From assembly GCA_013041745.1 (NCBI GenBank), contig JABDRN010000066.1, positions 1-45,976 of the forward strand: 45,976 nucleotides of DNA, in the 5' to 3' direction. This document shows, piece by piece, positions 29,462 through 33,731 of the stretch. Each line of letters opens with the position of its first letter. Within the stretch, counting starts at the first letter, position 1. This DNA is from Gammaproteobacteria bacterium (GTDB taxonomy: Bacteria > Pseudomonadota > Gammaproteobacteria > SZUA-229). The notes under the pieces are model-generated. The model did no database searches, was not told the DNA's origin, and saw only the letters and a list, made by a program, of their open reading frames with translations. The translations under genes and the position numbers were made by a program.

Positions 29462-30442
29462 ATGAATACCTCAGGAGAGCGTTCTGTGCTCGAGATCTTA
29501 CCGATATCAACATTGTTAGGCAGTTGTAGTATGTATAAGTTGATGACACTAAGACCTGATTCAATGCCTGTCATTGGAAGTGTTGTCGCCTGTCTTTTCT
29601 GGTTTATCGACTCTGCAGTCGATACTTTTATCTTTCAAACTAACAGGTTATACCTGGAAGACCTGCTGGCGCCAGATGTTCCTGAACTGTGGATGCGAGT
29701 ACAGATCGTGCTGTTGCTGATGGCGTTTTCACTGCTTTCCATGTCCATGTTGAGCCGACATCAACGGGTAAGAAAAAAACTAAAAAAATATAAGACTGAG
29801 TTTGAGAATATTGTCGATCAGCGCACGGTGGATATGAGTCTGACGAACACCCAGTTGCGAGAAGAGATCCTAGAACGGCAAAAGATCGAGGAGAAGCTTA
29901 TTCAGCTTGCTACCATCGACCCGCTGACATCGATCCCAAACCGGAGGAAATTCGATGAGGTGTTAGAGTACGAGATGAACCGTGACTCACGTTACAAGAA
30001 TGAGTTATCGCTGATATTTTGTGACCTCGACTATTTCAAGAAGATAAATGATAAGTATGGCCATAAGATCGGAGACGATGCCCTGAAAGCCTTCACCCAG
30101 CTGGTTTCTGACAATATCAGAAAGACCGATGTGATCGCGCGATGGGGTGGAGAGGAATTTGCCCTGCTGCTGCCGGAGACCAGCATAATGGTGGCGGCCA
30201 GTGCCGCTGAAAAGCTACGCAGTGAAACCGAGCGATTCGATTTTCCTCATGTCGGCCATATCACAGCCAGTTTTGGCGTCACTCAGTATATCGAGGGTGA
30301 TACCGAGGCCAGCCTGATCAATCGTGCCGATGATGCCTTATATAAAGCGAAGAAAAATGGACGTAATCGGATTGAGATGTTGCCGCCGGTAAAGACCATA
30401 AAATTTGCTTGTTCAGAAAAGAGGTCAGAGGAGAAGGCCTGA
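29462..30442 (+). CDS. Membrane-bound diguanylate cyclase (GGDEF domain, with I-site)
   Basis: A 326-residue inner-membrane enzyme that makes cyclic di-GMP from two GTP. Two transmembrane helices (about 36-54 and 80-98) enclose a short periplasmic loop, followed by a coiled-coil linker (105-148) and the GGDEF domain. The domain shows DPLTSIPNRRKF, FCDLDYFKKINDKYGH (metal-binding Asp), RWGGEEFALLLPE (active-site GGEEF, 229-233) and the inhibitory I-site RKTD (220-223) five residues upstream, which predicts product feedback. Start choice is uncertain: ATG at 29462 has a weak ribosome binding site, and ATG at 29531 preceded by TTAGGCAG is possible. A hairpin lies just upstream. Confidence 0.92.
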   Translation: MNTSGERSVLEILPISTLLGSCSMYKLMTLRPDSMPVIGSVVACLFWFIDSAVDTFIFQTNRLYLEDLLAPDVPELWMRVQIVLLLMAFSLLSMSMLSRHQRVRKKLKKYKTEFENIVDQRTVDMSLTNTQLREEILERQKIEEKLIQLATIDPLTSIPNRRKFDEVLEYEMNRDSRYKNELSLIFCDLDYFKKINDKYGHKIGDDALKAFTQLVSDNIRKTDVIARWGGEEFALLLPETSIMVAASAAEKLRSETERFDFPHVGHITASFGVTQYIEGDTEASLINRADDALYKAKKNGRNRIEMLPPVKTIKFACSEKRSEEKA

Positions 30443-31446: not shown

Positions 31447-33276
31447 ATGTTTGAATCAATCTTAATAACTGCTTTCGTCATCGGCTTGATCAGCGCAGTG
31501 TCATTGCCGATGGGCGCAATGACGACATTTTTCTGGAGTCCTTCTGAGCGAACAATCGCGATACTGATGGCTTTTGGCGGGGGCGCGCTATTAGCTGCGC
31601 TGACCATCGACCTGGTAGCCTCAGCAGTCGAGAAAGGGCATTTTTATGCGCTCGCTATCGGTGCTGTCTGCGGCGGCCTGCTGTTTGTTGGTCTCAATAG
31701 CATCGTTAATGATTATGGTGGTTTCCTGCGTAAGGCTTCGACCACGATCTATTATCTGAGGCGCAGGCAGTATCAGTGGTTGCAGCGTATCTCGAAGCAG
31801 CTAAAGCGGGTCGACCTGTTTAAGGACCTGAACAAGGATGATTACAGGGCGCTGGCTGCTTCGATCCATGCTGTTGATGTCAAAAGGGGAAGCTGGATCT
31901 ATCAATGCTGTGATCCGTCTGAAAACCTGTATATCATCATGAGCGGCCAGGTCGAGCTGATCAATCCACGTGATAACACGCAACCGCCAGAGCGTCTGAA
32001 AAAATATGATGTTTTTGGCTGGCGGGCGATCATAACCGGTTCGCCTTTCAGCTATTCAGCATTTGCCCATAGTGATGTCAGTCTGTGGATGTTACCGAAG
32101 CGCGCCTTTGAAACGCTTAACCTCAATTCGCAAGCTGCCAGGAAGAAGGTCCATGCAATGTTGCACAGTGAGGATATCCTGTCCTACCTGCAGAAAGATC
32201 AGGGGCTGAGTCAGCAACGGGCCGAGGATTGGCTTAACCTGGCTAGCGATAGCCTGATCAACACCGCAGTGGTGCCGCCGGCTAGCCGGGTTCGTCGCCA
32301 CCAGAACGCTTTTCGTAACAAGCTGGAGTATATGCAGCATATTCCACTGACCCAGGGGCTGTCGCTGGCAGCACAGCAACAGATCAGCTCACGCTTGATC
32401 TACAAACGCCACGCCCGTGGCACCAGTTTCTATCACCAGAGCGATCCTGCCGAACGCATGTTCATCATCGAACATGGCGAGGTCGATCTGATAGGTGCAA
32501 ACATGGATCGACAGAAATCACAGGTTCTGAAAGACTTTGATGCCTTCGGTGACATCTCCATGATCACCGGTGCCAGGCATTCTGTTGCTGCTGTAGCAGC
32601 GTGCGACACCACGGTATGGGAACTGCGAAAATCGGATTTTGAAGAGTTGCTGATTGAATTGCCCGAGTTGCTCGACCGTGTGCGCACCTATATCCATCGA
32701 GCCGGTGTCGAAGGCTACCTGGTCGGCCGGCATAATATGGATGAGGCGAATACCGCGCGCTGGATGCGTAAAGCGATGCGCAGCATCGATGCAGGTCTGC
32801 CGGTACCTGCAGCAGCTGATATCCGGCGTGAGATCATCGAGAACAAGGCGGCACCGCTGGCCATCTGGCTTGGTATCACGCTGGATGGTATCCCTGAATC
32901 ACTGGTCATCGGTGCCAGCATGATCGACGGTTTTATCGAGATATCTCTCATCGTTGGCCTGTTTCTCTCCAACTACCCGGAAGCATTGTCGAGTTCTATC
33001 GGAATGCGCAAGCAGGGCTTTTCGAAAGCCAGGGTGTTGATCATGTGGAGCTCGCTGATGTTATTCACCGGCGTCGGTGCAGCATTGGGCAGTGTTTTTT
33101 TCATCGGTGCATCACCGGCTAGCTATGCACTCATCCAGGGGATTGCGGCTGGCGCGATGCTGACCATGATCGCAGAGACCATGATGCCCGAGGCTTATTT
33201 TAAAGGCGGCTCCGTCGTCGGTATGTCGACCCTGCTCGGTTTTCTCGTCGCAATTTTTTCCAAGACGTTAGAATAG
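31447..33276 (+). CDS. ZIP-like transporter with two inserted cyclic nucleotide-binding domains
   Basis: A 609-residue membrane protein with an uncommon layout. Three hydrophobic helices (about 4-22, 36-60 and 66-86, the second with FGGGALLAALTIDLV) form a ZIP-type start. Two cNMP-binding domains follow in tandem: about 120-240 (SGQVELINP, DVFGWRAIITGSPFSYSA) and 295-410 (IIEHGEVDLIG, FDAFGDISMITGARHSVAAV). After a linker the C-terminal helices resume at about 469 with LGITLDGIPESLVIGAS, FLSNYPEALSSSIGM and MLTMIAETMMPEAY, matching ZIP helices 4, 5 and 7. The histidines of classical ZIP metal sites are replaced (DGIPE, SNYPEA), so the substrate is uncertain. Ligand-gated ion transport is an inference. 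Confidence 0.85.
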   Translation: MFESILITAFVIGLISAVSLPMGAMTTFFWSPSERTIAILMAFGGGALLAALTIDLVASAVEKGHFYALAIGAVCGGLLFVGLNSIVNDYGGFLRKASTTIYYLRRRQYQWLQRISKQLKRVDLFKDLNKDDYRALAASIHAVDVKRGSWIYQCCDPSENLYIIMSGQVELINPRDNTQPPERLKKYDVFGWRAIITGSPFSYSAFAHSDVSLWMLPKRAFETLNLNSQAARKKVHAMLHSEDILSYLQKDQGLSQQRAEDWLNLASDSLINTAVVPPASRVRRHQNAFRNKLEYMQHIPLTQGLSLAAQQQISSRLIYKRHARGTSFYHQSDPAERMFIIEHGEVDLIGANMDRQKSQVLKDFDAFGDISMITGARHSVAAVAACDTTVWELRKSDFEELLIELPELLDRVRTYIHRAGVEGYLVGRHNMDEANTARWMRKAMRSIDAGLPVPAAADIRREIIENKAAPLAIWLGITLDGIPESLVIGASMIDGFIEISLIVGLFLSNYPEALSSSIGMRKQGFSKARVLIMWSSLMLFTGVGAALGSVFFIGASPASYALIQGIAAGAMLTMIAETMMPEAYFKGGSVVGMSTLLGFLVAIFSKTLE

Positions 33277-33290
33277 ATACTGCTTGAGCG

Positions 33291-33731
33291 ATGGTACATC
33301 AGATGATACAGATAGATACTTCAAAAGACTTTTTACTGGCCGCAGATATCGTCCTGGCCTTGCATGTGCTATTTGTTGGCTTTATCGTTTTCGGTCTGGT
33401 GCTGGTATTTATCGGTAAGTTTTTATCCTGGTCATGGATTCGAAATCCCTGGTTCAGGCTGTTACATCTTGTCGCTATCGGGGCAGTGGTGATTCAGGCG
33501 TGGCTGGGTATCATCTGTCCTCTCACCACGCTTGAGATGGAGCTGCGAGCTCGGGCTTTCGATACTATTTATAGCGGTACTTTCATCTCCTACTGGTTAA
33601 GCAAGATCCTGTACTATCAATTCTCTCCCTGGGTCTTTACCTTTAGCTATACGCTATTTGCTGCGGCGGTGGTTTATAGCTGGTTCCTGATTCCTCCTCG
33701 CGGTTTCAGGACGATTCATAATCACCACTGA
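33291..33731 (+). CDS. DUF2784 membrane protein
   Basis: A 146-residue inner-membrane protein of the DUF2784 family. Three to four hydrophobic helices are visible: LAADIVLALHVLFVGFIVFG with VLVFIGKFL, HLVAIGAVVIQAWLGIICPL, and FTFSYTLFAAAVVYSWFLIPP. The family signature LHxxFVxFIVxG followed by WRNPWFRxLHL appears here as SWIRNPWFRLLHLVA. CPLTTLEMELR is also characteristic. Function unknown. The start lies 14 bases after the transporter gene's stop, so the two may be co-transcribed. A second in-frame ATG at 33303 is possible. Confidence 0.88.
   Translation: MVHQMIQIDTSKDFLLAADIVLALHVLFVGFIVFGLVLVFIGKFLSWSWIRNPWFRLLHLVAIGAVVIQAWLGIICPLTTLEMELRARAFDTIYSGTFISYWLSKILYYQFSPWVFTFSYTLFAAAVVYSWFLIPPRGFRTIHNHH

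Follow-up and report, generated by a model that had tools for sequence, protein, structure and literature searches.

Control of ZIP transporters is known to act through binding of metal to the loop between TM3 and TM4 and through protein turnover. BbZIP of Bordetella bronchiseptica (ZIP/SLC39 family) has a short, His-containing TM3-TM4 loop, which bends back to cover the egress site and acts as a negative regulator of zinc uptake (PMC10256678). BbZIP shares its membrane fold, and the Pro-Glu of both metal motifs, with the protein described here, in which the corresponding loop is by contrast ~370 residues long and carries two cyclic nucleotide-binding (CNB) domains. The nearest membrane domains are found in short ZIPs (e.g. 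L049 and the plasmid-borne L119) annotated as ‘ZIP family zinc transporter’, which is also the RefSeq name for similar short plasmid-borne proteins; they share a DG[IV]PE plus SN[IVL]PE-type motif with the present protein, but comprise only ~240-255 aa and lack the insert. With respect to the CNBs, the best Foldseek matches are the regulatory tandem CNBs of PKA and PKG, which differ in being soluble kinase regulators. The PKA-R of Trypanosoma is cAMP-independent, and its CNBs, having lost the Arg, bind nucleosides (PMC10959531); the likeness to the present protein rests on the altered cassettes, whereas the Trypanosoma protein gained specific Glu residues for ribose. In MloK1, SthK and other cyclic-nucleotide-gated channels a CNB is attached to a membrane ion pathway, as is the case here (Z up to 18.8, for CNB2), but there the channel is tetrameric and carries the CNB C-terminally, not inside a transporter loop. 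The CNNM/CorC magnesium transport proteins possess a CNB-homology domain (CNBH) without the Glu and Arg, as in the present protein, but combine a DUF21 membrane domain with a CBS pair and place the CNBH after the membrane domain. No fusion of ZIP and CNB was found in the open-access papers searched, and the initial annotation likewise knew of no characterised example; domain-architecture databases may nevertheless list such architectures without any accompanying study. A survey of CNBs mentions neither zinc nor ZIP in its main text (PMC2246266). Apparently, the proteins form a rare, undescribed ZIP family with one or two CNBs in the TM3-TM4 loop, and new here are seven relatives with one CNB and a canonical cassette, as against two-CNB forms that lack such cassettes at the same insertion point.

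In the window, i.e. the whole stretch of 45,976 nucleotides that was analysed, the gene is a 609-codon open reading frame encoding, in this order, TM1-3, two CNB domains and TM4-8. Its parts and the gene that follows it are:

31447..33276, + strand: whole gene, 609 aa, ZIP fold with two CNBs in the TM3-TM4 loop (open reading frame, Pfam, AlphaFold2 model with pLDDT 80, 15 other full-length homologues)
31447..31713, + strand: TM1-3, residues 1-89 (model helices 2-17/19-29, 34-62 and 66-89)
31609..31611, + strand: Asp55 in TM2 (manual alignment to BbZIP Ser106; invariant in 16/16)
31735..31803, + strand: juxtamembrane helix after GGFLRK, residues 97-119 (AlphaFold2 model)
31804..32166, + strand: CNB1, residues 120-240 (Pfam PF00027, best stretch 144-224; model)
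32014..32067, + strand: phosphate-binding-cassette region of CNB1, FGWRAIITGSPFSYSAFA (canonical Glu replaced by Trp, Arg by Phe)
32167..32316, + strand: helical tail 1, residues 241-290 (profile match with tail 2 at 97.4% probability)
32317..32691, + strand: CNB2, residues 291-415 (Pfam; match to the MloK1 CNB, Z 18.8)
32545..32598, + strand: cassette region of CNB2, FGDISMITGARHSVAAVA (Glu replaced by Asp, Arg by His)
32692..32844, + strand: helical tail 2, residues 416-466, running into TM4 (profile homology to tail 1; Trp439 invariant)
32845..33273, + strand: TM4-8, residues 467-609 (aligned to BbZIP; 57/143 positions invariant among 16 homologues)
32884..32898, + strand: DGIPE, residues 480-484 (aligned to BbZIP H177-E181; D, G, P and E invariant)
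32968..32985, + strand: SNYPEA, residues 508-513 (aligned to BbZIP Q207-G212; S, N, P and E invariant)
33175..33192, + strand: ETMMPE in TM7, residues 577-582 (aligned to BbZIP H275-E280; E577, T578 and E582 invariant)
33291..33731, + strand: DUF2784 membrane protein, 14 bases downstream (Pfam PF10861)

The CNB fold is evident from both profile score and model: Pfam cNMP_binding (PF00027) matches two stretches (E 2.4e-31, 108 bits against a cut-off of 27.5), and a phmmer search of PDB sequences aligned the CNBs of PKA-R at residues 114-235 and 295-404. The same search placed BbZIP at 475-605 (E 1.9e-7). Pfam Zip (PF02535) matches TM4-8 with E 3.2e-6 and 27.0 bits, the gathering cut-off being 35.1, and this cut-off is exceeded in CNB-bearing relatives, namely the two-CNB proteins L075 (38.3 bits) and L070 (40.1 bits) and the one-CNB protein L106 (44.3 bits). 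In the AlphaFold2 model, a monomer built with 16 homologues, BbZIP is the top structural match (Z 24.9, 2.4 Å, 239 residues aligned), and since the match spans residues 1 to 609, TM1-3 and TM4-8 jointly form the ZIP fold. The prediction thus returned a ZIP and not another fold, and the layout proposed in the initial annotation, with ZIP helices at 4-86 and again from 469 and two complete CNBs between them, closely matches the model, in which residues 2-89 are helical, the two CNB folds occupy about 120-240 and 295-418, and the membrane helices resume at 456. A tetrameric channel pore with a C-terminal CNB is not the layout of this protein. With a pTM of 0.47 and a pLDDT below 50 in the hinges at 92-102 and 463-469, the model does not fix the position of the CNBs relative to the membrane part. 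The one-CNB protein L104, modelled without an alignment, gave an unusable prediction (pLDDT 40). A misassembly or frame error as the source of the insert was ruled out by the 15 other full-length homologues, some of which are located on single-contig genomes.

The point of insertion coincides with the autoregulatory loop of BbZIP (PMC10256678), so that the earlier suggestion of a sensor cassette between helices 3 and 4 is borne out. On balance, we favour the explanation that the gene encodes a ZIP-fold transporter for divalent metals in the cytoplasmic membrane, the TM3-TM4 loop of which is replaced by a sensor module. We infer a coupling between module and transport because the module is the direct link from TM3 to TM4 and occupies the place of the loop that closes the egress site in BbZIP; judged from this position, a movement in the CNB or tail helices would free or block the exit of the metal, and the most economical reading would be that the module acts directly on the release of the metal. 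TM1-3 has a mean pairwise identity of 61% among the 16 two-CNB homologues, and the GGFLRK motif is invariant in 16/16 of these and wholly or partly kept in the one-CNB proteins. If true, a loop-borne sensor would link metal traffic and a second messenger in a single polypeptide, and it would offer a natural test of the TM3-TM4 loop as a transporter gate.

The metal path is recognisable in the alignment with BbZIP, in which H177, E181, Q207 and E211 correspond to D480, E484, S508 and E512, N178 to G481, D208 to N509, and H275/E276 to E577/T578, while S106 and E240 were assigned by hand from the same alignment to D55 and L539. D55, D480, E484, N509, E512, E577 and E582 are invariant in 16/16 two-CNB proteins. 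BbZIP has a binuclear site that includes His177 and Gln207, the former being Asp here. Its second metal site, which we take to consist of N178, D208 and E240, is not conserved in the window protein (G481, N509 and L539), which has Leu in place of Glu240 and Gly in place of Asn178. The alignment indicates that a carboxylate-rich first metal site remains, and the conservation of D55, D480, E484, E512, E577 and E582 suggests a metal path that is still working. An HNxPE-type motif with a His in TM4 is absent, and DGIPE is found instead, as in the short ZIPs without insert. BbZIP tolerates the mutation of His177 to alanine (PMC9278863), so that DGIPE limits what can be claimed about zinc and the site, but not about the fold. 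The initial annotation gave the letters of DGIPE and SNYPEA correctly; to call these motifs changed is misleading, because insert-free relatives carry close equivalents, such as the DG[IV]PE plus SN[IVL]PE-type (SN[IVL]PEG-type) motif of the short ZIPs L007, L031, L049, L050, L051, L053, L109 and L110. The same proteins rule out a change of the metal motifs tied to the insert. A protein with an altered metal site could also be a membrane receptor, the ZIP part of which senses metal and signals to the CNBs without transporting it, and the decayed motifs of the one-CNB protein L032 (DTIPG and GGIPEA) suggest that some members may not transport. However, the carboxylates of the metal path are invariant in the two-CNB subfamily, the membrane part is the most conserved part of these proteins, and there is no output domain, which leaves this reading very improbable.

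In CNBs that bind cyclic nucleotides, the Glu and Arg of the cassette contact the ribose and the phosphate. Both residues are kept in 7/7 one-CNB proteins (e.g. FGEMALLTGDPRSATA), which are thus probably responsive to cAMP or cGMP, as far as the cassette can be read. By contrast, the 16 two-CNB proteins have, among their 32 domains, none with the Glu, two with the Arg and none with both; these counts are of related sequences and probably reflect few events. Binding of cAMP or cGMP by the window protein despite the changed cassettes would be in line with the intact CNB folds of the model, with an Arg in CNB2 that is one residue away from the canonical place, and with a genome that encodes two class III nucleotidyl cyclase domains (contig C101, 62400-62927, and contig C117, 12600-13082), so that the cell may contain cyclic nucleotides. 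Nevertheless, we regard it as improbable, given the loss of the Glu from both cassettes in 16/16 homologues and of the Arg from 30/32 domains, with CNB1 having Trp and Phe at the canonical places of Glu and Arg. Gating by cAMP or cGMP, as first proposed for this protein, is unsupported because both of its cassettes, like those of the two-CNB subfamily, lack the Glu and Arg, while the idea does fit the one-CNB relatives.

In their altered cassettes, many members of one gammaproteobacterial order share a consensus of their own, FGRMAFFTS.PNAT.AQA in CNB1 and FFGGMAFVVGG.H..TA in CNB2, and the cassettes are conserved above the remainder of the CNB (p 0.001 and 0.003). Together with a dN/dS of 0.01-0.13 for the CNBs (in pairs where dS could be estimated), this consensus indicates that selection maintains the domains despite the loss of the canonical pocket; the better conservation of the cassette hints at a role in binding, but could also be structural. 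The CNBs of the window protein would probably either sense another small ligand or act as a fixed autoinhibitory or dimerising module. The main rival, that the CNBs of the two-CNB forms are ligand-free dimerisation scaffolds, takes its precedent from CNNM4, in which the CNBH, likewise devoid of this Arg and Glu, forms dimers and fails to bind cyclic nucleotides; in CNNM2 and CNNM3, Mg2+ transport is blocked once the CNBH is removed (PMC6940986). ZIPs dimerise via TM3, TM7 and TM8 (PMC10256678), and with both cassettes degenerate such a role is conceivable; it is nonetheless rather unlikely, since the cassette loops hold a new, better-conserved consensus and the one-CNB ancestor looks ligand-binding. 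Within the preferred reading of a transporter with a sensor in its loop, a more tentative extension is that the family consists of ligand-gated secondary metal transporters, in which a second messenger might directly open or close metal uptake, the one-CNB forms being cyclic-nucleotide-gated ZIPs and the two-CNB branch answering a different intracellular ligand. The two forms make a natural before-and-after pair for the loss or change of a ligand.

Both phylogenies and the comparison of the units bear on how the two-CNB form arose. In the tree of the membrane part, the CNB-bearing ZIPs are separated as a single clade from the insert-free ZIPs (support 100/98), the two-CNB forms are nested among the one-CNB forms with modest support (81/61), and the AU test rejects a clade comprising every one-CNB form (p 0.0025). 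In the tree of CNBs only, all CNB1 and CNB2 form one clade (97/95), to which the CNB of L104 is sister (87/89). The two CNB-tail units align with each other at E 3e-41, and the tails alone with the probability given above. The trees and these alignments indicate a tandem duplication of CNB and helical tail in an L104-like, one-CNB ancestor. The two CNBs do differ from each other, as had been noticed from the outset, yet they are copies of one duplicated unit. The proposed succession, each step of which is supported by computation, would begin with the insertion of a CNB and helical tail into the TM3-TM4 loop of a DGIPE-type ZIP, a state that the one-CNB forms preserve together with a canonical cassette, and would continue in the window's subfamily with duplication of the whole unit and loss of the canonical residues from both cassettes.

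The 15 further full-length proteins with the ZIP-CNB-CNB-ZIP layout, which the homologue search retrieved from gamma- and alphaproteobacteria, align end to end with the window protein. Close relatives are encoded by a gammaproteobacterial symbiont of Ctena orbiculata (55% identity) and by an alphaproteobacterial MAG (G960; 47% identity). In the gammaproteobacterial order, a match was found in 14/63 genomes; in 13 of these it is full length and contains two CNBs, and in the fourteenth (G772, L098:3720-5543) the two-CNB gene is broken into two open reading frames, by a sequencing fault or as a pseudogene. A further 24 genomes, sampled from the genus and family to which the window belongs, gave no match. 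The two-CNB form occurs only in the window's genome and G215 among 369 Gammaproteobacteria sampled, only in G960 among 385 Alphaproteobacteria, and in none of 345 genomes of the Desulfofustis phylum. Such a rare and patchy distribution could have arisen by transfer or by repeated loss. Coverage of the query stayed below 80% in every plasmid record, and viral contigs yielded no relative. An 85-codon frame in a Desulfofustis MAG (L004:5968-6222) resembles the beginning of TM1 fused to TM7-8 of a relative, and may be what remains after a large internal deletion or an artefact of assembly. The seven one-CNB ZIPs (L032, L081 and L104-L108) have their single CNB at the same insertion point; no further one was found in the other 16 genomes of the class to which the genome of L104 belongs. 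L032 (613-2022, G337) lies on a very long branch and keeps a canonical cassette despite its decayed metal motifs, and the gene before it resembles, by eye, a chromate transporter.

The surroundings of the gene give no pointer to the substrate, as no conserved neighbour or operon partner recurs across the other loci examined. The downstream DUF2784 gene is possibly co-transcribed with the transporter gene, but is absent from the other loci examined, and a scan for promoters and terminators returned nothing above chance. An acetyltransferase-like gene (assigned by eye) follows the transporter gene in three related genomes only. Upstream of the transporter gene lies a divergent cytidylate-kinase-like gene and, further upstream on the strand of the transporter (29462-30442), a gene for a GGDEF protein (diguanylate cyclase), which makes c-di-GMP a candidate ligand. 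At the end of the contig (45554-45958) an open reading frame resembles, by eye, an IS30-like transposase.
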